A DNA stretch of 48,224 nucleotides, taken from NCBI GenBank assembly GCA_017303975.1, contig JAFLBG010000027.1:1-48224 (forward strand). Reading direction: 5' to 3'. The translations under genes and the position numbers were made by a program. Under the pieces are notes generated by a model. That model was not told the DNA's origin. It saw nothing but the letters and a program-made list of their open reading frames with translations, and did not search any database. Positions within the stretch are counted from its first letter, which is position 1, and every line of letters starts with the position of its first letter. Origin of the DNA: Bacteroidota bacterium. GTDB lineage: Bacteria; Bacteroidota; Bacteroidia; JAFLBG01. Below, piece after piece: positions 14,760 to 37,632 of the stretch.

Positions 14760-17522
14760 ATGTCAGAAACAGCAAGTACAAAACGCATTGTAAAAGTAGC
14801 ATCAGAAATGGGTGTTGGCGTGGATCATATTATTGATTTTTTAAATAAGAATGGCCATACCGACATTAATCGTAATTCAAAAGTAAACGAAGAGCAATAT
14901 CTTCAGTTAGCAAGAGAATTTCAAGCTGAAAAATCTGTAAAAGAAGAGTCGAAGCTTGTTGGAATTTCTTCTAAAACAAAAAAAGAGGCCGTAGTTCTTG
15001 AAAACACTGAGGTTAAGAAGCCTGCGAAAGTAGAAGAAGAGAAAGAAGACATTTTGATAAAAGATGCAAATAGTGTTGCGCCTGCTGAAGAGGTTGTACG
15101 AGCAAAACCAGAAAAAGAGATAAAGGTTAAAGTGATCTCTAAAATTGATTTAGAGGCTCCGAAAGCGAAAACTACAAAAGCAAAAACCACAAAAACAACA
15201 AAATCTAAAGAGAAGGCAAAAGAGGAAGAAATTGTTGAAAAACCCGTAGATATTGTTAAAGAAGTACCTCCGGTTGTTGAAGAGAAAAAAGAAGTTGAGG
15301 TTGTTCCTCCGCCACCGGTAAAAGAAGAAAAGAAAGAGGATTTTATGGAAACCAAGTTTACCAAACTTGGAGGTCCAACTATTGTGGGGAAAATTGTTTT
15401 ACCAGTTGTAAAAGAAAAAGAAGATAAAAAGAAACCTGTTGCCTCTTCGTCTGCAGATGGGATTGATTTAGATAAGAAGAAAAAAAGAAGAAGAATTCAA
15501 AAAGAAGGTGGAGGTCAAGGTTTTCAGCCTACTCAAGGTGGCGGTGGCGGAAAGCCATTTACACCAAGGTTTGATAATAAAAATAAATTTGCCGGAAAAC
15601 CGAGAGAGGAAAGGGTTGCTCCAACTGAAGATCAAATACAGCAACAAATTAAGGAAACACTTGCAAGACTAAGTGGGTCTGGAAAATCAAAGGCTGCAAA
15701 GTATCGTAAAGAGAAGCGTGAGGAGATAAAAGAAAAATTACAACAAGAAGCCGCACAGCAAGAAGTTGATAAGAAAACATTACAAGTAGCCGAATTTATT
15801 TCTGCAAGTCAGTTAGCTACTATGATGAATATACAGGTAAATGAAATTATTAAAACCTGTATGAGTATTGGGTTGTTTATCTCTATTAATCAGCGTTTAG
15901 ATGCAGAAACAATATCTATGTTGGCTGAAGAGTTTGGCTACAAAGTAGAATTTGTAACTGTTGAAGCCCAAGAGTCCATTGCGATTGAAGCCGATAAGCC
16001 GGAAGATTTAATGCCACGTTCACCAATCGTAACCGTAATGGGGCACGTAGATCACGGTAAAACATCGTTGCTGGATTTTGTTCGTAAGGCGAATGTGATA
16101 GCAGGAGAGGCAGGGGGAATTACTCAGCACATTGGTGCATACAGCGTGCAATTAGAAGATGGAAGAAAAATCACATTTTTAGATACTCCTGGTCACGAGG
16201 CGTTTACCGCTATGCGTGCACGTGGTGCTAAAGTTACCGATGTGGCTATTATTGTAGTAGCTGCCGATGACAGTGTGATGCCACAAACAAAAGAGGCTAT
16301 CAACCATGCGCAAGCAGCTGGTGTTCCGATGGTGTTTGCCATTAATAAAATTGATAAACCTGGAGCAAATCCTGAAAAAATAAAAGAAGCATTATCTATC
16401 ATGAATATCTTGGTAGAAGATTGGGGCGGGAAATACCAGTGCCAGGAAATATCAGCTAAAAAAGGCTTAAATATTGAGGCATTATTGGATAAAGTGTTAT
16501 TAGAAGCCGAAATGTTGGATTTAAAAGCAAATCCAAATAGAAATGCATCGGGTACCGTAATAGAATCATCTTTGGATAAAGGTCGTGGATATGTATCCAC
16601 TATTTTGGTTCAAAACGGAACATTACGCATTGGGGATGTCGTTTTAGCAGGTCCACATTCCGGTAGAGTAAAAGCTATGTATAACGAGCGTCAGCAGGCA
16701 ATTAAAGAAGCCGGGCCTGCAACACCGGTATTGATACTTGGGTTGAGTGGTGCACCGCAAGCAGGAGATAATTTTAACGTGATGTCGGATGAACGCGAAG
16801 CACGCGATATTGCTAATAAACGTTTGCAGTTGATGCGTGAGCAAGGTATCAAAACACAAAAACATATTACACTTGATGAGATTGGAAGACGATTGGCAAT
16901 TGGAGACTTCAAAGAGTTAAACGTAATCGTAAAAGGTGACGTGGATGGCTCTGTAGAGGCTCTTTCTGGATCGTTATTGAAATTATCTACACCAAAAATT
17001 CAAATAAATGTAATTCATAAATCGGTGGGACAAATATCCGAATCGGATGTGTTGTTGGCATCAGCATCAAATGCAATTATTATTGGATTCCAGGTTCGTC
17101 CTTCTTCAAGTGCTCGTAAGTTAGCCGAGGCAGAACAAATTGATATACGCTTGTATTCTATCATTTACGATGCTATCAATCAAATTAAGGATGCTATGGA
17201 AGGAATGTTGGCGCCAGAGTTTGAAGAAAAAATTGTTTGTAATATAGAAGTTCGCGAGGTGTTTAATATTACCAAAGTGGGAACTATTGCAGGTTGTATG
17301 GTGTTGGATGGTAAAGTTACTCGAAACACTAAGGTGCGTGTGATACGTGATGGTATTGTATTGCATTCCGGTTCTTTAGGCTCGTTGAAACGATTTAAAG
17401 ACGATGTAAAGGATGTGGTAGCAGGCTTTGAGTGCGGATTGAATATTGATAAATTTGATGATGTAAAAGTGGGTGATATTATTGAAGGATACGACCAAGT
17501 GGAAGTAAAACCTAAATTGTAA
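14760..17522 (+). CDS. infB: translation initiation factor IF-2
   Basis: A 920-residue GTPase that places initiator tRNA on the 30S subunit. The N-terminal third (about residues 60-310) is a low-complexity Lys/Glu/Val/Pro and Gly-rich linker, as in other Bacteroidota. The G domain has GHVDHGKT (G1, about 427-434), DTPGHEAF (G3) and NKIDKPG (G4), followed by domains II to IV ([35 protein letters not shown]). No frameshift is visible. Downstream of nusA with a hairpin between them. Confidence 0.97.
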
Positions 17523-26963: not shown

Positions 26964-29900
26964 ATGCAATTCAACGAAAACTCACGAGTTAAACTTCCTA
27001 CCATTTTGCATTTATGCAGATTGGGCTACACTTACTTGCCTTTATCAAGGACTAATTGGGATAAGAACACCAATATTTTTACCGATATATTCAAATCAAA
27101 TATTAAAAGATTAAATCCTGAAATAACTGATGGCGATGTAAAAGGCATATTAGATAACATCAATTTGGTGTTGGATTATGAGGATTTAGGGAAAGCATTT
27201 TATGAATTAATTACTTCTCCGTCCGGTTATAAACTAATTGACTTTGATAATTTCAAAAACAATTCCCTGCACGTTGTTACTGAATTACCATGCGTAAATG
27301 GTGAGGAAGAATTTCGACCTGATATTACATTGTTGATTAACGGAATGCCGTTGGTTTTTATAGAAGTTAAAAAACCGAATAACCTCGAAGGCATACAGGC
27401 TGAATACAAACGCACATTTAAGCGCTTTGAAAATAAAAAGCTACGTAAGTTTATTAACGCTACGCAGTTAATGGTATTTTCAAATAACATGAACTATGCT
27501 GTTGGCGATATTGTTCCATTGCAAGGTGCATTCTACGCTACAACATCATACTCTAAGCCTGTATTCAATTATTTTAGAGAAGAAGACAAGTTTGATTTAC
27601 AAGAATTATTAGCTGATGTTCCTGATGATTTGGAAACATTCATCTTAAAGGACAACAATTTAGTGGGTATTAAAAATGCTCCAGAATTTATTACAAACAA
27701 AAACCCCGATTCTCCTACTAATAAGATTTGTACTTCGCTCTTTCGGCCTGAACGATTATCATTTTTTCTGCAATATTCTATTACCTATGTAAAGGAAAAC
27801 GCCAGTTTACAAAAACACATCATGCGCTATCCACAATACTTCGCAACAAAAGCTATTGAGAAGAAATTGAACGAAGGCGTTAAAAAGGGTATCATTTGGC
27901 ACACACAAGGAAGTGGAAAAACTGCACTCACATTTTATAACGTAAAATATTTAACGCATTACTTCCGTGCAAAAAATATTGTTCCGAAATTTTATTTTAT
28001 TGTTGACCGTTTAGATTTACTAATACAAGCCGGACGAGAATTTAAAAGTCGTGGACTTGTGGTACACAATGTAAATTCACGAGAAGAATTTGCAAAGGAT
28101 ATTAAGTCCACAAGTGCCATACACAACAATTCCGGCAAATTGGAAATTACTGTTGTAAACATTCAAAAATTTAAAGATGATCCGGATGTTTTACGCAGTA
28201 AGGATTATCAATTAAACATTCAGCGCGTTTATTTCTTAGATGAAGTTCACCGAAGCTATAATCCGAAAGGAAGTTTCTTGGCCAACCTGAACGAATCCGA
28301 TCCTAACGCAATCAAAATAGGATTAACAGGAACGCCATTATTGGGTGATGATTATAATTCTAAATCTTTGTTCGGAGGTTACATTCACAAATACTATTAC
28401 AATTCTTCCATTGCTGATGGTTATACGTTACGCTTGATACGTGAAGAAATTGAAACCAGTTACCACTTAAAATTAAAAGAAGCCCTAAAAGACATTGAAA
28501 TTTTAAAAGGCGATTCCGACAGAAAGTTGGTTTACTCCCATCCCAAGTTTGTAGAGCCAATGCTGGATTACATTGTACAAGATTTTGAAAAGGCACGTAT
28601 TGCAAGCAACGACAATACTATTGGTGGTATGGTTGTTTGTGATTCATCGGAGCAGGCGGAACAAATGAAAGAAATATTTGAACACAAATATTCTATCAAA
28701 GAATCTGAATACAGAATGGCTGCCGAGCCTGCTGTTTCATACAACCAAAAACAAAAAGAAGAAAGTAAGGTAACTTCTTCGGCTCTTATTTTGCACGATG
28801 CCGGAACAAAATCGGAACGTGAAGTATTAATTGAAGAATTTAAAGACGGTAAAATTGATTTGCTGTTCGTGTATAATATGCTGCTTACTGGCTTTGATGC
28901 GCCTCGTTTAAAGAAATTGTATTTGAGCCGTGTTATTAAGGCACACAATCTTTTGCAAACGCTTACACGTGTTAATCGTACCTATAAAGATTTTAAGTAT
29001 GGTTATGTTGTTGATTTTGCAGACATACAGCGTGAGTTTGATAAAACCAACCGAGATTATTTTAACGAACTGCAAAATGAGTTGGGTGATGAAATGGAAC
29101 ATTACTCCAATTTATTCAAATCAAAAGAAGAAATTGAAAAGGATATTCAGCATATAAAAGAGGTTTTATTTCAGTACGATACTGTAAATGCAGAAGTGTT
29201 CTCACAACAAATTTCTGAAATAAACGACCGCTCTACCATGCTTCAACTGGCTAAAGCCCTTAACACCGCTAAGGAATTATACAACCTCATTCGCTTATCA
29301 GGTAATTATGAGTTATTAGAAAAATTAGATTTTCATAAACTTACACTACTATCCAGAGCAGCAAACGATAGGTTAGCATTAATCAATACTCGTGAAGCAT
29401 TAGAAAAAAATGTTGATACAAGCAATCTGTTAAATGTAGCATTAGAGGATGTGATCTTCGCTTTTACCAAAATTAAGGAGGAAGAAATGATTTTGGCTGA
29501 CCAACTCAAAAACATTTTACAACGTACCCGTGAAATGTTGGGTGGTAATTTCGACCAACACGATCCGGTGTTTATTTCATTAAGAGAAGAACTGGAACGC
29601 CTCTTTAAGAAAAAGAATTTAAGCGAGGTTACAAAGGAGGAAATGGAACAGAATATTCAGGATTTGGAAAAGATTTATAACGAAGCCAAAGAACTGGAAC
29701 GTAAAAATCAATTACTGAAAGCGAAATACGATAATGATTCCAAGTATGCCCGTTTGCACAAACGCCTAATGGAGAAAGACCCACTAACGGATAGCGAAAG
29801 CAAATTGTTTGAGGCTCTGCAAAGTTTAAAGAAAGAAGTGGATACACAGATTTTGCAAAATTCGCATATGCTTGAAAACGATAGCTACATTGAAAAAATG

Positions 29901-30029
29901 ATGGCAAGGATAGTGATTGACCAACTGATGAAAAAGCACCAGTTACCTCTTAATCCTGAATCATCACAACGAATTAACCTATTAATTGTAAAAGAGTACA
30001 TGAACGAGTATTACGGACGTGCATCTTAA
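26964..30029 (+). CDS. hsdR: type I restriction enzyme, restriction (R) subunit
   Basis: A 1021-residue motor-nuclease subunit. The PD-(D/E)XK nuclease has Asp120 and Glu134-Val-Lys136 (FRPDITLL ... VFIEVKKP). The SF2 helicase core has Walker A HTQGSGKT (313-320), motif II FLDEVHRSY (Asp426), GLTGTPL (motif III) and later motifs including LLTGFDAPRL and QTLTRVNRTY. A long helical C-terminal part (about 720-1000) should contact HsdM. It cleaves unmethylated DNA after ATP-driven translocation when joined to HsdM2-HsdS. Intact, with no frameshift. First gene of the locus, 11 bases before the Bro-N gene. Confidence 0.96.
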   Translation: MQFNENSRVKLPTILHLCRLGYTYLPLSRTNWDKNTNIFTDIFKSNIKRLNPEITDGDVKGILDNINLVLDYEDLGKAFYELITSPSGYKLIDFDNFKNNSLHVVTELPCVNGEEEFRPDITLLINGMPLVFIEVKKPNNLEGIQAEYKRTFKRFENKKLRKFINATQLMVFSNNMNYAVGDIVPLQGAFYATTSYSKPVFNYFREEDKFDLQELLADVPDDLETFILKDNNLVGIKNAPEFITNKNPDSPTNKICTSLFRPERLSFFLQYSITYVKENASLQKHIMRYPQYFATKAIEKKLNEGVKKGIIWHTQGSGKTALTFYNVKYLTHYFRAKNIVPKFYFIVDRLDLLIQAGREFKSRGLVVHNVNSREEFAKDIKSTSAIHNNSGKLEITVVNIQKFKDDPDVLRSKDYQLNIQRVYFLDEVHRSYNPKGSFLANLNESDPNAIKIGLTGTPLLGDDYNSKSLFGGYIHKYYYNSSIADGYTLRLIREEIETSYHLKLKEALKDIEILKGDSDRKLVYSHPKFVEPMLDYIVQDFEKARIASNDNTIGGMVVCDSSEQAEQMKEIFEHKYSIKESEYRMAAEPAVSYNQKQKEESKVTSSALILHDAGTKSEREVLIEEFKDGKIDLLFVYNMLLTGFDAPRLKKLYLSRVIKAHNLLQTLTRVNRTYKDFKYGYVVDFADIQREFDKTNRDYFNELQNELGDEMEHYSNLFKSKEEIEKDIQHIKEVLFQYDTVNAEVFSQQISEINDRSTMLQLAKALNTAKELYNLIRLSGNYELLEKLDFHKLTLLSRAANDRLALINTREALEKNVDTSNLLNVALEDVIFAFTKIKEEEMILADQLKNILQRTREMLGGNFDQHDPVFISLREELERLFKKKNLSEVTKEEMEQNIQDLEKIYNEAKELERKNQLLKAKYDNDSKYARLHKRLMEKDPLTDSESKLFEALQSLKKEVDTQILQNSHMLENDSYIEKMMARIVIDQLMKKHQLPLNPESSQRINLLIVKEYMNEYYGRAS

Positions 30030-30039
30030 AAAATAGTGT

Positions 30040-30909
30040 ATGAGTAAGAAAAGTGAAATTAAATTATTTGAACAAAAACAAGTACGAACCATTTGGGACG
30101 AAGAAAATGAAAAATGGTATTTATCTATTGTAGATGTAATTGAAGTACTTACTGGCACTGACCGCCCCAGAAAATATTGGAGTGACTTAAAATCTAAGCT
30201 TAAAAAAGAAGGAAGTGAGTTGTCCGAAAAAATCGGACAACTGAAAATGGAGGCGTCTGACGGCAAAAAATACACAACCGATGTGGCCGACACCGAACAA
30301 TTGTTTCGGGTTATACAGACTATTCCATCTCCTAAAGCAGAACCATTTAAACTGTGGTTAGCACAAGTAGCTGCCGAACGTTTGGATGAAATGCAAGACC
30401 CGGAGTTGAGTATTGACAGAGCCTTAGAGCAATACCTAAAATTGGGTTATTCGGAAAAATGGATAAATCAACGACTTAAAAGTATTGAAATTCGGAAGGA
30501 ACTTACCGATGAATGGAAAAAACGCGGTTTAAAAGATGGTGTTCAGTTTGCTACACTTACCGACATTATCACCAAAGCGTGGAGCGATAAAACTACCAAA
30601 GAATATAAAATACTTAAAGGGTTGAAAAAAGAGAACCTGAGGGATAATATGACTAATACCGAATTAATTTTGAGTATGCTTGCAGAAGCTTCCACTAAAG
30701 ATATATCTGAAGCTACCAAGCCCGCTTCTTTTGAAGCCAGCAAAAAAGTGGCCCAACATGGAGGGAATGTAGCTAAGGTGGCTTTAAAAGAATTAGAATC
30801 CAAAACCGGTAAAAAGGTTGTAACGGCTTTAAACGCTAAAAATCTATTGGAAAAAAATTTGTCGAATGTAAAAGACATTAAAAAATTACCATCGAAAAAA
30901 AAGAAATAA
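30040..30909 (+). CDS. Bro-N domain protein (phage antirepressor-like) inside the RM operon
   Basis: A 289-residue soluble protein. The N-terminal 110 residues match the Bro-N domain of phage/baculovirus antirepressors (IWDEENEKWYLSIVDVIEVL, YWSDLKSKLKKEGSELSE, FRVIQTIPSPKAEPFKLWLA). The middle LEQYLKLGYSEKWINQRLKS is typical of the longer bacterial form, and the C-terminus is Lys-rich. Bro-N genes recur in type I RM loci of Bacteroidota, where they might regulate the locus or bind DNA; the role is unknown. The stop codon overlaps the start of the transposase gene by one base (TAATG). Confidence 0.8.
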   Translation: MSKKSEIKLFEQKQVRTIWDEENEKWYLSIVDVIEVLTGTDRPRKYWSDLKSKLKKEGSELSEKIGQLKMEASDGKKYTTDVADTEQLFRVIQTIPSPKAEPFKLWLAQVAAERLDEMQDPELSIDRALEQYLKLGYSEKWINQRLKSIEIRKELTDEWKKRGLKDGVQFATLTDIITKAWSDKTTKEYKILKGLKKENLRDNMTNTELILSMLAEASTKDISEATKPASFEASKKVAQHGGNVAKVALKELESKTGKKVVTALNAKNLLEKNLSNVKDIKKLPSKKKK

Positions 30910-31370
30910 TGTCAAATACTTTTTCGCAAATATATATTCAAGTAATCTTTGCAGTTAAAGGTAGGGATAGTCTGATTTTACCGAGTTGGGAAACGGAATT
31001 ACACAAATATATTACAGGCATTATTACCAATAAAGGGCAAAAGTTAATAGCTATAAACGGAATGCCAGATCATATTCATATATTAATTGGTATGAAACCA
31101 AGCTGTTCCCTATCGGATTTGGTGAGGGAAATAAAAAAGTCCTCTAACGAATTCATCAAGAGTAAGAAATTCACAAAGTTTAATTTTCAATGGCAAGAAG
31201 GTTTTGGGGCATTTTCGTACAGCCATTCTGCGTTAGACAATGTAATAGCATATATTAGCAATCAGAAAGAGCATCACAGAAAAAAAACATTTAGAGAGGA
31301 GTACGTTGAGTTTTTAGAAAAATATAAAATAGATTTTAAAGATGAATATTTGTTTGAATGGATAGAATAA
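30909..31370 (+). CDS. IS200/RAYT-like Y1 transposase
   Basis: A 153-residue single-domain HUH endonuclease. The metal-binding motif is GMPDHIHILI (His55 and His57), and the catalytic Tyr is probably Tyr115 in VIAYISNQKEHH; SDLVREIKKSSNEFI precedes it. The length is that of solitary IS200-type TnpA proteins. It has no TnpB partner. It starts on the stop codon of the Bro-N gene and is followed at once by a large palindromic array, which suggests a RAYT-like role on that repeat family rather than a free insertion sequence; this is an inference. Confidence 0.88.
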   Translation: MSNTFSQIYIQVIFAVKGRDSLILPSWETELHKYITGIITNKGQKLIAINGMPDHIHILIGMKPSCSLSDLVREIKKSSNEFIKSKKFTKFNFQWQEGFGAFSYSHSALDNVIAYISNQKEHHRKKTFREEYVEFLEKYKIDFKDEYLFEWIE

Positions 31371-31376
31371 TGGACT

Positions 31377-31965
31377 TGAACCGGAAGGGTTCATATATTT
31401 CTAATAAACACAATAAAACAAATGATACGACCCCGAAGGGGTCGAACAACTTACAAATAGACAATTTATACATATGCGATTCCTTTGGAATCAAAAATTT
31501 GTGAAGAGGGGCAGGAAATAGAAATGCAAGAGCAAACCCGTAGGGTTTGAATATGTATAACAAACAGAAACAAACAAATGATACGACCCCTGCGGGGTCG
31601 AACACCTTACAAACGAAAAATTTACAAATATGCGATCCCTTCAGGATAAAAAATTTGGGAAGAGGGGCGGGAAATAGAAATGCAAGAGCAAACCCGTAGG
31701 GTTTGGATATGTATAACAAACAGAAACAAACAAATGATACGACCCCTGCGGGGTCGAACACCTTACAAACGAAAAATTTACAAATATGAGATCCCTTCGG
31801 GATCAAAAATATGGAAAGAGAGATAGGAAATAGAAATGCAGGAGCAAACCCGAAGGGTTTGAATATGTATAACAAATAGAAACAAACAAGTGATACGACC
31901 CCTGCGGGGTCGAACAACTTACAAACAGACAATTTATAAATATGCAATCCCTTCAGGATCAAAAA
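31377..31965. repeat. 156-bp tandem repeat array with three palindromes per unit
   Basis: The CGACCCC hairpin recurs at 31428, 31584, 31740 and 31896, exactly 156 bases apart. The GATCCC/GATTCC hairpin recurs at 31478, 31634, 31790 and 31947 (last two-sided pairing weak), and the CAAACCC hairpin at 31533, 31689 and 31845, with a related GAACC hairpin at 31378. This gives about 3.8 units. Between the hairpins the spacers are also conserved. The array fills the gap between the transposase and hsdM; the hsdM start is only nine bases past the last hairpin. It carries no protein gene. Confidence 0.92.
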
Positions 31966-31973
31966 ATAAGAGT

Positions 31974-33602
31974 ATGAGCAAGACATTAGAATTTGAAAGA
32001 AAAACAAAAACCCTTATTGACGACCTAAAGAGCGTTTGCGCTAATTACGGTTTAGGCAATGATGGCAATGAGTTTAAAATTATTACGCAGGTTTTTTTGT
32101 ATAAATTTTTGAACGACAAATTTGCCTATGAAATAAAGCAGTTGGAACCAAAGCTTGCCAAAGCGGAGAGTTGGGAGAGTGAATTAAAGAAATTTAAAAA
32201 GAATGATTACGAAATGCTGCTGATGCAGTTGAATGAAAATACTGCACGATTAAGACCAGAACATTTCATCGCTACACTTTACGATAAACAAAACAGCGAT
32301 AAATTTTCCGAATTGTTTGATAACACACTATTGGCTATCGCAAAGGAGAACAACGATATTTTTTCTGTACTTACCGATGGTGGCGAAAAAATAATGTTGT
32401 TTGAAAACATCAGCAAATATGTAACGGATAAGCGGGATGAATTTTGTAAGGCAATCGTTAACAAACTGGTGAACTTTAGCTTTGAACATATTTTTACCGA
32501 GAAGTTTGATTTCTTCGCTACTATTTTTGAATACCTCATTAAAGATTACAATACCAATAGTGGTGGCAAGTACGCAGAATATTTTACACCTCATGCCGTA
32601 GCTAAAATTATGGCATCGTGCTTAGTTACTGAAAAAGTTAAAGATGTAACCTGTTACGATCCTTCGGCAGGTTCAGGCACATTGTTAATGAATTTGGCTC
32701 ATGCCATTGGCGAGGATAAGTGTACCATTTACTCGCAGGATATTTCTCAAAAGTCATCAAACCTGTTGCGGTTGAATTTGATATTAAACAATTTGGTACA
32801 CTCTATACCTAACATTGTAAAGGGAAACACCTTGTTAGACCCCTACCACAAAGAGAAGGATAAAAAGACCTTAAAGAAATTTGATTTCATTGTTTCTAAC
32901 CCTCCGTTTAAGCTTGATTTTAGTGATTATGTGGAAGATTTAAAAAGCAAAGAAAACCACGAACGCTTTTTTGCAGGTGCGCCCAATGTACCAAAAACAA
33001 AACCCGAAGGCATGGCTATTTACCCCATGTTCATACAGCACATCATGCACTCGCTTTCTGCAAAAGGAAGAGCAGCCGTTGTTGTACCAACCGGATTTAT
33101 TACCGCACAAAGCGGAATTGAAAAAACTATACGTGAAAAAATGGTGGATGCTAAAATGCTGCGTGGTGTTATAAGTATGCCTAGCAATATTTTTGCAACC
33201 ACAGGCACTAACGTTAGCATTTTGTTTATTGATACTGCCAATAAAAAGGGCGACATCGTATTGATGGATGCCTCTAAATTAGGAACTACGGTTAAAGAAG
33301 GTAAAAATCAAAAGACATTACTCTCTGCCGATGAAGAACAAAAGATCATTAACACCTTTAATAAGCACAAAGTTGTTGAGGATTTTACGGTAGTTGTTTC
33401 TTATGACCAAATAAAAGAAAAGAATTACAGCTTTAGCGCAGGGCAATATTTTGATGTGAAAATTGAATACACAGATATTACTCCAAAAGAATTTGCAAAG
33501 AAGATGGAAAGCTATAAAACCAATTTGGATAACCTTTTCAGCGAATCAAAGAAATTGGAAAAAGATATTCAGAAACAATTGGAGGGATTGAAGTATGAGT
33601 AA
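31974..33602 (+). CDS. hsdM: type I restriction-modification methyltransferase (M) subunit
   Basis: A 542-residue N6-adenine methyltransferase. The ATG at 31974 (MSKTLEFERKTKTLIDDLKS) is chosen because an upstream in-frame extension would run through the repeat array. The N-terminal HsdM_N helices are followed by motif I CYDPSAGSGTLLMN (about residue 227) and motif IV VSNPPFKLDF (about 309). It pairs with HsdS to methylate the target and with HsdR to restrict. The last eight bases overlap the hsdS start, typical of translational coupling. Confidence 0.96.
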   Translation: MSKTLEFERKTKTLIDDLKSVCANYGLGNDGNEFKIITQVFLYKFLNDKFAYEIKQLEPKLAKAESWESELKKFKKNDYEMLLMQLNENTARLRPEHFIATLYDKQNSDKFSELFDNTLLAIAKENNDIFSVLTDGGEKIMLFENISKYVTDKRDEFCKAIVNKLVNFSFEHIFTEKFDFFATIFEYLIKDYNTNSGGKYAEYFTPHAVAKIMASCLVTEKVKDVTCYDPSAGSGTLLMNLAHAIGEDKCTIYSQDISQKSSNLLRLNLILNNLVHSIPNIVKGNTLLDPYHKEKDKKTLKKFDFIVSNPPFKLDFSDYVEDLKSKENHERFFAGAPNVPKTKPEGMAIYPMFIQHIMHSLSAKGRAAVVVPTGFITAQSGIEKTIREKMVDAKMLRGVISMPSNIFATTGTNVSILFIDTANKKGDIVLMDASKLGTTVKEGKNQKTLLSADEEQKIINTFNKHKVVEDFTVVVSYDQIKEKNYSFSAGQYFDVKIEYTDITPKEFAKKMESYKTNLDNLFSESKKLEKDIQKQLEGLKYE

Positions 33603-34800
33603 GATTTCACAAACTACTTTAGGTGATTTAATTGAATTTCAGCGGGGGTATGATTTACCTAAATCTGAATTTAAAGAGGGGAATGTTCCTGTAATATCTT
33701 CGAATGGTATTTTAGGATATCATAATGAAGCAAAAGTGAAAGCGCCAGGCATTACAATAGGTCGAAGTGGAACTGTTGGCCTACCACATTATATTAAAGT
33801 TGATTACTTTCCTCACAACACTGCACTTTTTATAAAAGATTTTAAAGGTAATTTCCCAAAGTATATTTACTACTTAATAAAAACTTTAAGATTAAACGAA
33901 TTTAAAAGCGGATCAGGTGTCCCAACAATGAATAGGAATCATTTGCATCCACTTAAAGTAAATGCGTATTTAGATCCTAAAATTCAAGAAAAGACAACCT
34001 CGGTACTTTCCTGCTTAGATTCCAAAATCGAACTCAACAACCGCATCAATGCCGAGTTAGAAGCAATGGCAAAAACACTTTATGATTATTGGTTTGTGCA
34101 GTTTGATTTTCCCTTCGACTTCGCTCAGGGCAAGCCGAATGCAAAAGGTAAACCCTACAAAACAAGTGGGGGTAAAATGGTTTGGAGTGAGGAATTAAGG
34201 AGGGAGATTCCGGAGGGGTGGGAGGTGAGAAAGTTAGAGGATGTAGAAAACAACATCATAACAGGTAAAACGCCTTCAACAGAAAATCAAAGTTATTTTA
34301 ATGGAGATATTCCATTTATTTGCATAGGCGATGTTAGAGGGAATATGCACATAGTTGATACAGAAATTAAACTAACAGAAGAAGGAGCTAATACACAAAA
34401 AAATAAATTTATACCTAAAGGATCTATTTGCGTTACATGTATTGCTACGCCCGGGTTAGTTGGCTTTGCAACTAAGGATTCACAAACAAATCAACAATTA
34501 AATTCTATCATTTGCGAAAAATTCGAAAATCAATATTATTTATATTTCTATCTCACTGACTATTTTAAGTACGCAAGGGCTAAAACAGGTAACACGTTTG
34601 CCAATATGAACAAAGGTGATTTTTCTTCTATACTTGTAGTTAAACCATCTAAAGAAGTATTGATAAACTTTTCTGAAAAAGTAAAACCTTTAGTTGAAAT
34701 TATACTTAATAATTCTTTACAAAACCAACAACTTGCATCTCTCCGTGATTGGCTTTTGCCAATGTTAATGAATGGGCAGGTGAAGGTGTCTGAACTTTGA
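33595..34800 (+). CDS. hsdS: type I restriction-modification specificity (S) subunit, 3' end truncated by insertion
   Basis: A 401-residue DNA-recognition subunit with two target recognition domains: TRD1 (about residues 5-145, start TTLGDLIEFQRGYDLPK) and TRD2 (about 205-375, start WEVRKLEDVENNIITGKTPS), each followed by a helical spacer (LNNRINAELEAMAKTLYDYW; NNSLQNQQLASLRDWLLPML). Between the TRDs an extra FDFAQGKP octapeptide is present. The original tail continued at LMNGQVKVGDEN (now at 35252); a 466-bp cassette supplies the new ending VSEL and stop. The ancestral protein would be about 462 residues. The essential helices are retained, so activity may be kept. Confidence 0.93.
   Translation: MSKISQTTLGDLIEFQRGYDLPKSEFKEGNVPVISSNGILGYHNEAKVKAPGITIGRSGTVGLPHYIKVDYFPHNTALFIKDFKGNFPKYIYYLIKTLRLNEFKSGSGVPTMNRNHLHPLKVNAYLDPKIQEKTTSVLSCLDSKIELNNRINAELEAMAKTLYDYWFVQFDFPFDFAQGKPNAKGKPYKTSGGKMVWSEELRREIPEGWEVRKLEDVENNIITGKTPSTENQSYFNGDIPFICIGDVRGNMHIVDTEIKLTEEGANTQKNKFIPKGSICVTCIATPGLVGFATKDSQTNQQLNSIICEKFENQYYLYFYLTDYFKYARAKTGNTFANMNKGDFSSILVVKPSKEVLINFSEKVKPLVEIILNNSLQNQQLASLRDWLLPMLMNGQVKVSEL
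34111..34137 (+). repeat. 24-base in-frame insert in the hsdS linker
   Basis: Within the linker between the two recognition domains, the usual FDFPNAKGKPYK of this family is interrupted by FDFAQGKP. The coding sequence is TTCGACTTCGCTCAGGGC plus six bases. The same short sequence type (TTCGACT[TC]CGCTCAGG) is a widely dispersed small repeat in Bacteroidota. The insert keeps the frame. Confidence 0.6.
34765..34785. repeat. 21-bp direct repeat, left copy, flanking the GxxExxY cassette
   Basis: Identical to 35252-35272 (begins TTAATGAATGGGCAGG), and encodes LMNGQVK of HsdS in both copies. Read as a target-site duplication; the match extends to 23 bases if two cassette-end bases are counted. Confidence 0.85.
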
Positions 34801-35251
34801 TTTTTGTGATTAAATGATTGGTATGATTAATGAGCAATACAAATATTCTGAACAGACTTCCCGAATTATTGGATGTGCTATGACTATTCATAAAACGTTA
34901 GGAAATGGTTTTCAGGAAGTCATTTATCAAAGGGCACTGGCAATTGAAATGGGTTTGGCTGGTATTGAATTTAGCAGAGAATTTGAAATGCCAATTTTTT
35001 ATAGAGAAGAACAAATAGGCACTCGGAGGGTTGATTTTTTAGTAGAAGGAATTATTTCAGTGGAGTTAAAAGCAATTACCAAACTAGAAGATGTTCATCT
35101 TGCGCAGGCTATTAATTATTTGGAAGCGTACAATTTGGAAATAGGTTTGCTTATCAATTTTGGAGAATCAAGCCTAAATTTCAAAAGATTGACCAACAAA
35201 AAATATAAATCACCTGAATCAAAACAATCAAAATAATCATAGTTCAGACAC
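34786..35251 (+). mobile_element. 466-bp cassette with terminal inverted repeats carrying a GxxExxY gene
   Basis: The left end reads GTGTCTGAACT and the right end is its exact complement (AGTTCAGACAC). Comparing the first and last 26 bases gives 23 matches. The cassette is flanked by a 21-bp direct repeat, and the interrupted hsdS tail continues in frame after the right copy. The left end supplies stops in all three forward frames within about 30 bases. The only gene inside is the 140-residue GxxExxY protein. This is best explained as insertion of a small mobile element or intervening sequence into hsdS. Confidence 0.8.
34814..35236 (+). CDS. GxxExxY protein (PD-(D/E)XK-like), cargo of the cassette
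   Basis: A 140-residue protein. The name-giving motif is GFQEVIY (Gly32, Glu35, Tyr38), preceded by IHKTLGN. Then RRVDFLVEGIISVELKAITK provides Asp74, Glu84 and Lys86, the PD-(D/E)XK-type nuclease signature, and INYLEAYNLEIGLLINFGE is the usual C-terminal strand-helix region. The family is widespread and multi-copy in Bacteroidota, with no assigned function. Two in-frame starts exist (34814 and 34823). It is the only gene between the terminal repeats, so it may drive movement of the cassette. Confidence 0.85.
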   Translation: MIGMINEQYKYSEQTSRIIGCAMTIHKTLGNGFQEVIYQRALAIEMGLAGIEFSREFEMPIFYREEQIGTRRVDFLVEGIISVELKAITKLEDVHLAQAINYLEAYNLEIGLLINFGESSLNFKRLTNKKYKSPESKQSK

Positions 35252-35470
35252 TTAATGAATGGGCAGGTGAAGGTAGGTGATGAGAATTTACCTGACAAAG
35301 AAGAAACAATTGAATATTTACCTAAGCAGTACAAGCCTTTCACTATGCATGCTAGAGGGGAGACTGGCCCTATAAAAAATCTTCAAAATTCAAAGGCAGC
35401 ATTAAAAAGCAAAAAAAGCGAAACCCCCAAAAACGAAAATTTGAAGAAGCGAAAGAGACAAGCTAGATAA
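35252..35470 (+). pseudogene. hsdS: displaced 3' end of hsdS
   Basis: From 35252 the frame reads LMNGQVKVGDENLPDKEE and continues for 72 residues to a stop, ending in a Lys/Arg-rich tail (NLKKRKRQAR). Its first seven residues repeat the end of the truncated HsdS at 34765. It is the original C-terminus cut off by the cassette. It has an ATG two codons in, so a short peptide could still be made. Confidence 0.85.
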
Positions 35471-35472
35471 AA

Positions 35473-35591
35473 GAATCCGAAGGATTCCTATATGTATAAA
35501 TAAATGAAAAATAAAAAAACATACGACCCCAACGGGGTCGCACTAATGAAATGAAACGTAAATCTATAAATGTATAATCCCTTCGGGATTA
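35473..35591. repeat. single palindromic unit related to the 156-bp array
   Basis: Three hairpins occur at 51-base intervals: GAATCC-GAA-GGATTC (35473), CGACCCC-AAC-GGGGTCG (35524) and TAATCCC-TTC-GGGATTA (35575). The order and spacing match those of the array at 31377-31965, though the stem sequences differ in part with pairing preserved. Confidence 0.85.
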
Positions 35592-35658
35592 GGGTAGCTG
35601 AAGGTTGAAAAGTTAGAGAGAGGATGAAAAATTAATTTTTTAATCGTATTTTTATAAT

Positions 35659-36435
35659 GTGGAAGAACAAGGCTACATAGAAGTTAAGATTGAAGGATTA
35701 GTTGGTAACAAGCAACTAAAACCTTTAGATATTGATATTGCTGAAATAAAAGAAATAATCAACAATGTTGAAACTTTTTTGTACCCCACTAGATCTGAAA
35801 AAGCAGAACGCCCCCACATTTCTTACAAACTAGAAGAAGGATCTGCCAGAAATTTATTTTACTTACCAATATCAGGTGTACTATTATTCAATGGTTTGTT
35901 AAATGAGGTAAGCGTTAGAGGAAACATCGATTTTTTAGATAATAAACGAGCTGAAATTATTGATAAGTTTCAGAGAGAAGCAACCGAAAAAAACATAGAG
36001 ATTTCATTTTATAGCTCTTCAGGGGCTAATCCAATTCTAAAAATCAGTAAAGAAACACAATTTTTTAAAATAGCTGCATCATACATAGAAACTGAATTTG
36101 TACTGTATGGCAAGATTAATGAAGAAGGAGGGAATAATCCCAACTTTCATCTTTTAACTAAAGAATATGGAAAGTTGGTAATTAGTGCTACAGAACAGCA
36201 ACTTTTGGAAGGTGAGAAGCGGTTATTTAAAATTTATGGAGTAAGGGCAAAAGGGAAACAGAGTTTATCAGACAAGAAGCCTTTTGACCTAAAGCTTATT
36301 GATTACGTTACATACAACCCAAATTATGATGAAAATAAATTGGATTTGATTATAAAAAAAGCATCCGTAGCATGGAATGGGATTGCAAATGTAGATTTAT
36401 GGTTGCAAGGAATAAGAGGAGGAGCTAATGGATAG
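35659..36435 (+). CDS. unknown protein paired with a PIN-domain protein
   Basis: A 258-residue soluble protein starting at GTG (35659), since the adjacent ATG is in another frame and stops at once. I do not recognise the family. The N-terminal half is beta-rich with the conserved-looking stretch ISYKLEEGSARNLFYLPISG; the C-terminus has WNGIANVDLWLQGIRGGANG. No helix-turn-helix or other antitoxin DNA-binding domain is visible. Its 3' end overlaps the PIN gene by eight bases, so the two are translationally coupled and may be an unusual toxin-antitoxin or effector-sensor pair; this is inference. Confidence 0.7.
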   Translation: MEEQGYIEVKIEGLVGNKQLKPLDIDIAEIKEIINNVETFLYPTRSEKAERPHISYKLEEGSARNLFYLPISGVLLFNGLLNEVSVRGNIDFLDNKRAEIIDKFQREATEKNIEISFYSSSGANPILKISKETQFFKIAASYIETEFVLYGKINEEGGNNPNFHLLTKEYGKLVISATEQQLLEGEKRLFKIYGVRAKGKQSLSDKKPFDLKLIDYVTYNPNYDENKLDLIIKKASVAWNGIANVDLWLQGIRGGANG

Positions 36436-36898
36436 TATTTTACTAGATACTTCATTTTGCATTCGACTACTTAAAAGCAATGATGCTTTGCACCAAAATA
36501 CTAAGGAGTATTTCAAGTATTTTTTAGAACAAAAAATAGAAATGTATTTATCAAGTATCGTTATTGCGGAATACTCAGTGAAAGATGATGCAAATAATTT
36601 ACCACTTGAGTATGTAAAAATAATTCCATTTGATTTTTTTGATGGAAAAACTGCTGGCGAGTTTCATTCAATTCTTATTAATAAAAAAGAGTACGTTGCC
36701 AATATTGAACGTAATGTAATTAAAGATGATTGCAAACTGATTGCTCAAATATTCAATAGGAAAATTCAAGGATATATTACAAAGGACAAAAAGTCTTTTA
36801 ACCAAATAATCCAGCCTATTCAAACTATAAAAGGTATTAAAATAGAACTACTTGATTTCGAAATTCCATTAAAAGAATATAGAGGAGAATTGTTTTAG
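36428..36898 (+). CDS. PIN-domain ribonuclease (VapC-like)
   Basis: A 156-residue PIN-domain protein. Acidic residues expected for metal-dependent RNA cleavage are in place: Asp7 (SILLDTSF), Glu48 (VIAEYS), Asp100/Asp101 (VIKDDCKLIA) and Asp120 (YITKDKKSF). The size fits VapC-type toxins, though the partner upstream is larger than a usual VapB. It ends 12 bases before the convergent membrane protein gene. Confidence 0.82.
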   Translation: MDSILLDTSFCIRLLKSNDALHQNTKEYFKYFLEQKIEMYLSSIVIAEYSVKDDANNLPLEYVKIIPFDFFDGKTAGEFHSILINKKEYVANIERNVIKDDCKLIAQIFNRKIQGYITKDKKSFNQIIQPIQTIKGIKIELLDFEIPLKEYRGELF

Positions 36899-36909
36899 CC
36901 AGCATACTT

Positions 36910-37632
36910 CTAAGTTACCTTGGCAATTTCTTCTTGTCGCTTAAATTCTTCGTATTCATTTTTTAGTTTTGAAACTATAATCGGTGTTACCGCCGCCAAC
37001 TGGTAGCCAAATACTAATAGAAATCCCATTATAACATGTGCCATTATTAGAATGGCTAATACATAGTTATTAAAATATAGACTTTGATTGAAAACAATAA
37101 TTGATGTTATAATAGATCTAATCAATAAAATAAAATCAGTAGTATAATAGAATTTTGCTCGCTGGATTTGTTTCAGCATTCTTGCTGCCTCTTTTGAAGG
37201 AATAGATTTACTTACTTTCTCATATAAATCGAATATCCAATTTTTTCTTTTTGTTTGAATTGGTAATTTTTCTTTGAGTTGTTTATTTGTTCCTAGCAAC
37301 GTAAATGCCTCAGCAAAAGAGAAGTCAAGAATTTTTCTTTGCTGCTTCTCCCCGATTCTATCGTTAAACCACTGAAATATGAATTGAGAAGGGGCGGAGG
37401 TTAACACCCAAACAAGAAAAAAAAATCCTAATGGAATTATGAATTTTCCGTTCAGGAAAAAATCAATGATCATCTCTATAGGAAAGTTACTAGGTATAGG
37501 TAGATTTACATATATCTTCTTAATGATGGCAAACGTTATAACGGAAACAAATAGAATATTCAAAAAAGGTTTTAATAAATTATGCCCTTTTCCATGTCTA
37601 ATTAAGCTAGCTGTTTTTAAGAGTTCGTCCAT
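36910..37632 (-). CDS. membrane protein of unknown function, last gene of the XRE operon
   Basis: A 240-residue protein with about four hydrophobic segments (about residues 24-42, 62-82, 162-182, 188-215) and a basic central loop (KQLKEKLPIQTKRKNWIFDL). I recognise no family. It follows the RxxxxH protein by 21 bases on the same strand, in an operon that begins with an XRE regulator. In defence and toxin modules a last membrane gene can act as an effector, but nothing in this sequence shows a specific role. Confidence 0.6.
   Translation of the reverse strand: MDELLKTASLIRHGKGHNLLKPFLNILFVSVITFAIIKKIYVNLPIPSNFPIEMIIDFFLNGKFIIPLGFFFLVWVLTSAPSQFIFQWFNDRIGEKQQRKILDFSFAEAFTLLGTNKQLKEKLPIQTKRKNWIFDLYEKVSKSIPSKEAARMLKQIQRAKFYYTTDFILLIRSIITSIIVFNQSLYFNNYVLAILIMAHVIMGFLLVFGYQLAAVTPIIVSKLKNEYEEFKRQEEIAKVT

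Follow-up and report, generated by a model that had tools for sequence, protein, structure and literature searches.

A recurrent three-hairpin module beside a solitary IS200-type transposase gene in Bacteroidota

RESULTS AND DISCUSSION

A tandem array of hairpin modules next to tnpA

The window analyzed here is a stretch of 48,224 nt, read on the forward strand, from a Bacteroidota bacterium whose assembly amounts to 3.43 Mb in 70 contigs. Inside a type I restriction operon, between hsdR and hsdM, it contains a gene for a Y1 HuH transposase (tnpA) followed by a tandem array in which three short hairpins (A, B and C, always in this order) form a repeated module. Tandem Repeats Finder placed the array at 31395-31967, with a period of 156, 3.7 copies, 88% matches and zero indels. 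A first-pass annotation had described it as an exact 156-bp array; the period and the array are real, and the CGACCCC hairpin starts that it gave (31428, 31584, 31740 and 31896) are exact, but the units are not exact copies, being 80-93% identical in pairwise comparisons. Four module copies of the unit lie within 31377-31965, and a fifth, diverged copy is found 3.5 kb downstream of the array at 35470-35593, with the same hairpin order and orientation. Scores below refer to R1, a covariance model of the module.

30909-31370, + strand: tnpA, Y1 HuH transposase of 153 amino acids, assigned to subclass 1.2 (Pfam Y1_Tnp, E-value 2e-25)
31375-31495, + strand: module 1 (A 31377-31393, B 31428-31444, C 31478-31492), R1 107 bits
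31531-31651, + strand: module 2 (A 31533-31549, B 31584-31600, C 31634-31648), R1 104 bits
31687-31807, + strand: module 3 (A 31689-31705, B 31740-31756, C 31790-31804), R1 111 bits
31843-31963, + strand: module 4 (A 31845-31861, B 31896-31912, C 31946-31960), R1 107 bits
35470-35593, + strand: module 5, diverged, outside the tandem array (A 35473-35487, B 35524-35540, C 35575-35591), R1 107 bits on this strand and 90 bits on the - strand

Three distances make up the 156-bp period: about 51 from A to B, 50 from B to C and 55 from C to the next A. Not all hairpins are perfect: the apical pair of A in module 1 (31377-31393) is broken, and two of the four C hairpins of the array, those of modules 2 and 4 (31634 and 31946), are mismatched. 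When one module was folded as single-stranded DNA, all three hairpins formed on either strand, with z = -4.3 and -4.0 and none of 200 shuffles folding as well. A search of Rfam returned nothing above threshold. Two more short tandem repeats occur in the window, at 15162-15198 and 37239-37288, with periods of 15 and 19.

Anatomy of the module

The anatomy was worked out from 80 relatives of the tnpA gene, whose loci come from named genomes. Hairpin A (stem of 6 bp, loop of 3 nt) is followed by 2 nt, a tail (ATGTTTATAG), a linker and hairpin B (CGACCCC-NNN-GGGGTCG); after B come a second linker, the sequence CTATAAACAT, which is the exact inverse of ATGTTTATAG, 2 nt and hairpin C, typically AATCCC-TTC-GGGATT. 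The basic element is the 10-nt tail CTATAAACAT, 2 nt and then a hairpin of these same dimensions (6 bp and 3 nt). A and C are this same element inverted, with the tails facing inward, so that the module is a pseudo-palindrome and R1 scores on both strands. The A-B-C order bears out the earlier suggestion of an ordered multi-hairpin unit. The tails found in the window depart from this consensus, reading ATATGTATAA for A and TTTATACATATG and TTTACAAATATG for the inverted tail.

31551-31560, 31707-31716, 31863-31872 and 35490-35499, + strand: tail of A, ATATGTATAA, a variant of ATGTTTATAG
31465-31476, 31621-31632, 31777-31788, 31933-31944 and 35564-35573, + strand: inverted tail 5' of C, TTTATACATATG, a variant of CTATAAACAT

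Periods from module to module vary by locus (about 141 to 387), while within a module the distances remain close to 51 + 51, and an unfiltered histogram of the distance between neighboring loops peaks at 51 nt. The arrays at L049:8565-10745 (period about 387) and L047:8561-11127 are long, with six modules or more and a period particular to each locus. The A-B linkers have an identity at the level of shuffled sequences (0.365 versus 0.351), with a length held at 19-23. The tails of A and C agree better within a locus (0.86) than between loci (0.81; 0 of 5000 permutations), and the tetranucleotide ACAT stands at 160 of 708 hairpin feet. In the folds of two loci (L077 and L086) the two inverted tails pair together and enclose B, an alternative single-strand form.

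Evidence for selection on pairing

From the difference between GATTCC-TTT-GGAATC (31478-31492) and GATCCC-TTC-GGGATC (31790-31804), the first-pass annotation had argued for selection on pairing. The compensated change is real, and covariation in the stems supports the argument. We examined 198 TATAAAYAT sites near tnpA, chosen by the tail alone and ignoring palindromes. Pairs 1-6 form in 73-80% of them, compared with 33-62% after shuffling, except for pair 5, which is near-invariant; pairs 7-8 were not clearly above shuffles, and 35 sites far from tnpA gave no comparable signal. The stem at this fixed place is 6 bp long, and pairs 4 and 6 change identity on both sides. Among 23 aligned modules, changes on both sides were found in 32 cells versus 7.2 in shuffled alignments (0 of 500), with covariation at five of the six pairs of A and at three of C, B being invariant. 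On these alignments a second measure of covariance was weak, as further pair types were no more numerous than in the shuffles. Stem mismatches of the G.T kind (19) are no commoner than C.A/A.C (21), which indicates an RNA-like preference on neither strand.

The last point bears on an explanation in which the hairpins act in mRNA, as terminators, attenuators or stabilizers between hsdR and hsdM, and were passively duplicated in tandem, the transposase being a bystander. The array does lie in the sense strand of the restriction operon, there are five terminator-like sites versus 0.9 expected, and the upstream neighbors of tnpA are mostly co-oriented with it (57 of 71). However, four of the five terminator-like sites face against the operon, runs of four Ts follow just 51 of the 708 hairpin feet, and modules beside tnpA are found next to very different genes. 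Given also the balance of mismatches and the scores with R1 on both strands, we regard this explanation as unlikely. Its simplest form, an RNA terminator, was dropped on the direction of the sites, the scarcity of T runs and the mismatch balance.

Linkage to tnpA and distribution

Hairpins were counted when they had a stem of at least 6, a loop of 3 and a G+C-rich tip. Over the 80 loci their density reached 6.25/kb on the 3' side of tnpA (first 250 bp) and 3.1/kb on the 5' side, compared with 0.11/kb beyond 2.5 kb, i.e., about 50 times the far background beside the gene and declining with distance. At least one such hairpin lies within 600 bp of tnpA in 72 of the 80 loci. When R1 was run over 1.03 Mb, 61 of the 80 loci were matched among the best 300 rows (E-value 2e-6 or better), 44 of them outside the training set, and almost all the matches fell within 3 kb of tnpA. 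The ordered module thus recurs beside related tnpA genes across Bacteroidota and in a few other phyla.

We also surveyed 198 whole genomes of the taxonomic class to which the source belongs. The module was present in 44, and tnpA was found in 39 of these carriers versus 45 of the 154 other genomes (p = 9e-13). In several genomes there are modules on contigs other than that of tnpA (G048, G067, G117, G128, G137, G164:C1 and G168:C39), a dispersal like that of repetitive extragenic palindromes (REPs) which is missing in the genome of the window. The first-pass annotation had named the lack of further copies in its own genome as what would refute it, and the search of the 3.43-Mb assembly found no copies beyond the five, all less than 4.3 kb from tnpA. 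This result has to be weighed against the modules lying away from tnpA in other genomes of the class. The number of modules changes locally, as indicated by syntenic loci with four in Algoriphagus pacificus and one in A. lutimaris, and by those of two Roseivirga species, where the array differs by about 210 bp.

At loci of subclass 1.2 genes that are less closely related (38-58% identical) R1 mostly fails; flanking hairpins of other sequence are found there at 25 of 40 loci (a few of which are closer than this range), at 2.0/kb versus about 0.15/kb. The module is thus clade specific and the association with hairpins wider. Two of the distant relatives (L219 and L220) show yet another type of palindrome near tnpA, with longer hairpins such as CCCAGGGT-ttac-ACCCTGGG. 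Relatives of the transposase were sought in mobile elements as well, with none in viral contigs, one 30% match in phages and two matches in plasmids.

A subclass 1.2 transposase with its own palindromes

The protein carries the motifs DHIH, WQ and YISNQKEHH. These correspond to the signature of TnpA-Y1 subclass 1.2 (DH[IV]H, WQ and Y---Q--HH), a group of low copy number found mostly in Bacteroidota (Quentin et al. 2018, PMC6006769), and place it by sequence in this subclass, next to the IS200 transposases. In NCBIfam it scored above the IS200 cut-off and reached 31 bits with REP_Tyr_transpos, whose cut-off is 80. The predicted structure (pLDDT 90.8) has ISDra2 and IS608 TnpA as nearest folds, with the REP transposase 4er8 lower. 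The YxxxQxxHH motif was conserved in 115 of 122 relatives and the YxxNP motif of REP-associated tyrosine transposases (RAYTs) in none. The copy number is low, with one tnpA plus one paralogue 57% identical in its own genome and mostly one copy per genome elsewhere.

A solitary Y1 gene forming a RAYT-REP pair had been proposed in the first-pass annotation. No TnpB is encoded among the neighboring open reading frames of the window, and the REP-like association with a transposase holds across phyla; the RAYT identity does not, as the protein falls in subclass 1.2 and the GTAG tag is absent. RAYT (TnpA-REP, class 2) membership was ruled out by the missing Y--NP, the 31 versus 80 bits and the missing GTAG/CGTC tag; at the 708 hairpin feet we counted two GTAG, no GTGG and three CGTC. 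Subclass 1.2 has been published as lacking REPs and generally also the typical end structures of IS200 (PMC6006769). It matches the transposase studied here in motifs, length, low copy number and a mostly Bacteroidota distribution, but hairpins are the rule at the loci analyzed (72 of 80), and it is the published absence of REPs that needs revision, rather than the membership of this TnpA.

The second subclass 1.2 gene of the same genome (L030:4940-5800, on contig C21), the 57% identical paralogue, has palindromes on both sides. These are GCTCC-NNN-GGAGC and GTCCC-NNN-GGGAC, with tails such as CTACAAACAGT, and the GCTCC type is found only beside this paralogue. Together with the distant members that have palindromes of their own, this indicates that transposase lineage and palindrome type go together.

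The closest likeness among known systems is to REPtrons and RAYTs (TnpA-REP, class 2; PMC8266576, PMC6006769). In both, short palindromes flank a solitary Y1 HuH gene and in some genomes occur elsewhere too, inverted pairs with a linker are arranged in tandem, each hairpin has a conserved tag on its 5' side, and the palindrome differs by transposase lineage. In contrast, the protein is of class 1.2 (YxxxQxxHH, no Y--NP), the tag is CTATAAACAT instead of GTAG/GTGG, there is a third, central hairpin with a fixed spacing of ~51 + 51 nt, and tag and hairpins are common to several phyla rather than species specific, with copies mostly clustered at tnpA. Bacterial interspersed mosaic elements (BIMEs) offer the same comparison: A and C resemble inverse REPs with a linker, in tandem modules, and B is the extra central hairpin. 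The CnGA-tagged class 3 TnpA-Y1 (PMC6006769), a Y1 group between insertion sequence transposases and TnpA-REP, likewise has atypical REP-like structures but differs in protein class, phyla and tag.

With IS200/IS605 elements (IS608, ISDra2) the fold and catalytic motifs are shared, and recognition of single-strand hairpins with a 5' guide would be the expected chemistry. The whole system could then be a classical insertion sequence, moving as a unit, with hairpins as repeated left and right ends; the class 1 protein, its nearest solved structures (ISDra2 and IS608 TnpA) and the frequent position of C-type hairpins just 5' and A-type just 3' of tnpA agree with this. We find it improbable, however. 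Nothing in the data points to movement of the element as a whole, TnpB is missing among the window neighbors, and loci have several modules and many hairpins, not one pair of ends with one hairpin each. In its own genome tnpA is single copy, near-identical copies with fixed ends were not found (the next best is 57% identical), and most carriers are single copy as well. Furthermore, modules also occur on contigs without tnpA.

A probable REP/BIME-like system and how it might work

The locus is probably best explained as a REP/BIME-like repeat system around a solitary IS200-type (subclass 1.2) transposase, with a new class of tag (ACAT instead of GTAG), that has been amplified locally. The system is dispersed in some genomes and not in its own. 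The module and its conservation, the covariation, the spacing, the linkage to tnpA and the local differences in copy number between congeners are established by this analysis.

A and C, inverted with their tails inward, flank the invariant B at ~51 + 51 nt, the triplet being what is repeated. Regarding mechanism, TnpA may bind the single strand in its folded form, most likely where replication forks expose the lagging-strand template, with the tail 5' of the hairpin as a putative guide or recognition sequence for cleavage. Cutting and rejoining near the tail through a tyrosine intermediate would allow strand transfer, and the outcome would be tandem duplication of modules beside tnpA with occasional copying elsewhere. 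As a guess, an oppositely oriented pair of TnpA dimers around B might be the reason for three hairpins and the 51 nt. An extension of this scheme, which we offer tentatively and consider rather doubtful, takes the A-B-C triplet as a defined single-strand nucleoprotein substrate in which A and C would carry TnpA dimers, in opposite orientations and at a set distance on either side of B. The mobile unit would then be the module, not the hairpin or the gene, spreading preferentially in operons such as those for restriction-modification, and pairs of modules could mobilize the genes between them.

Several points weigh against the REP/BIME-like interpretation. The activities ascribed to TnpA (binding, cleavage and strand transfer) are carried over from the biochemistry of IS608/ISDra2 and REP transposases (PMC8266576), and replication slippage alone could yield tandem copies. 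Five module-bearing genomes have no tnpA at an E-value of 1e-30, and in the genome of the window the spread of modules is confined to 4.3 kb. The B hairpins are invariant, and hence their pairing is beyond the reach of covariation. Finally, module examples were picked by a spacing of 46-56 nt, which favors constant spacing, although the unfiltered histogram peaks likewise.

How REPs come to be copied and dispersed is an open question, with mechanisms described as poorly understood (PMC8266576). Here, a transposase of the IS200 class published as REP free keeps beside it a phylum-wide, ordered and regularly spaced module, and this connects insertion sequences with domesticated REP transposases. 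It is also a compact, low-copy system with natural copy-number variation at syntenic loci, where module gain and loss can be traced directly.

The restriction operon context

The genes around tnpA and the modules are the following.

26964-30029, + strand: hsdR, type I restriction subunit (Pfam/NCBIfam/PADLOC)
30040-30909, + strand: Bro-N domain gene (PADLOC PDC-S13), between hsdR and tnpA
31974-33602, + strand: hsdM, starting about 10 bp past module 4
33595-34800, + strand: hsdS
34814-35236, + strand: PD-(D/E)XK_3 nuclease-family gene, between hsdS and module 5

The ATG of tnpA overlaps the stop codon of the Bro-N gene (TAATG), and module 5, behind hsdS and the PD-(D/E)XK gene, bounds the far side of hsdM-hsdS. 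At nine other loci (Pedobacter, Bacteroidales, Anaerolineales and others) tnpA is beside a homologous hsdR and, contig permitting, hsdM. These loci (L046, L063, L067, L075, L081, L083, L089, L098 and L101), in which tnpA either separates hsdR from hsdM or follows hsdR where the contig ends, span Bacteroidota, Chloroflexota and one metagenome-assembled genome labeled Falkowbacteria. On a quick tnpA tree the association with the operon requires six changes, two of them forced by well-supported branches. Among 55 other upstream neighbors, restriction-type domains are the commonest (ResIII 8, N6_Mtase 5 and HSDR_N_2 5), an excess that may be partly a lineage effect as loci were picked by likeness to the window transposase.

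Since the array and module 5 bracket hsdM-hsdS, the module might belong to the restriction system itself, for example as a recombination site for exchanging these genes. The recurrence of tnpA between hsdR and hsdM in several phyla, the several changes on the tree and the position of module 5 just past the hsdS/PDDEXK genes would fit. Yet about 70 of the 80 loci are outside such an operon, and there are homologous operons without tnpA or array in which hsdR and hsdM (or hsdR, Bro-N and hsdM) are directly adjacent (L160 and L176-L180), so that the operon does not need the module. We therefore consider such a role very improbable.

The Bro-N protein (30040-30909) is a defense candidate, with relatives in 83 of 395 genomes of the class, mostly outside such restriction operons. 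In the region 34814-36898, a 258-amino-acid protein without Pfam match follows module 5, and then a PIN-like gene overlapping by 8 bases; the two are possibly a toxin-antitoxin-like pair.
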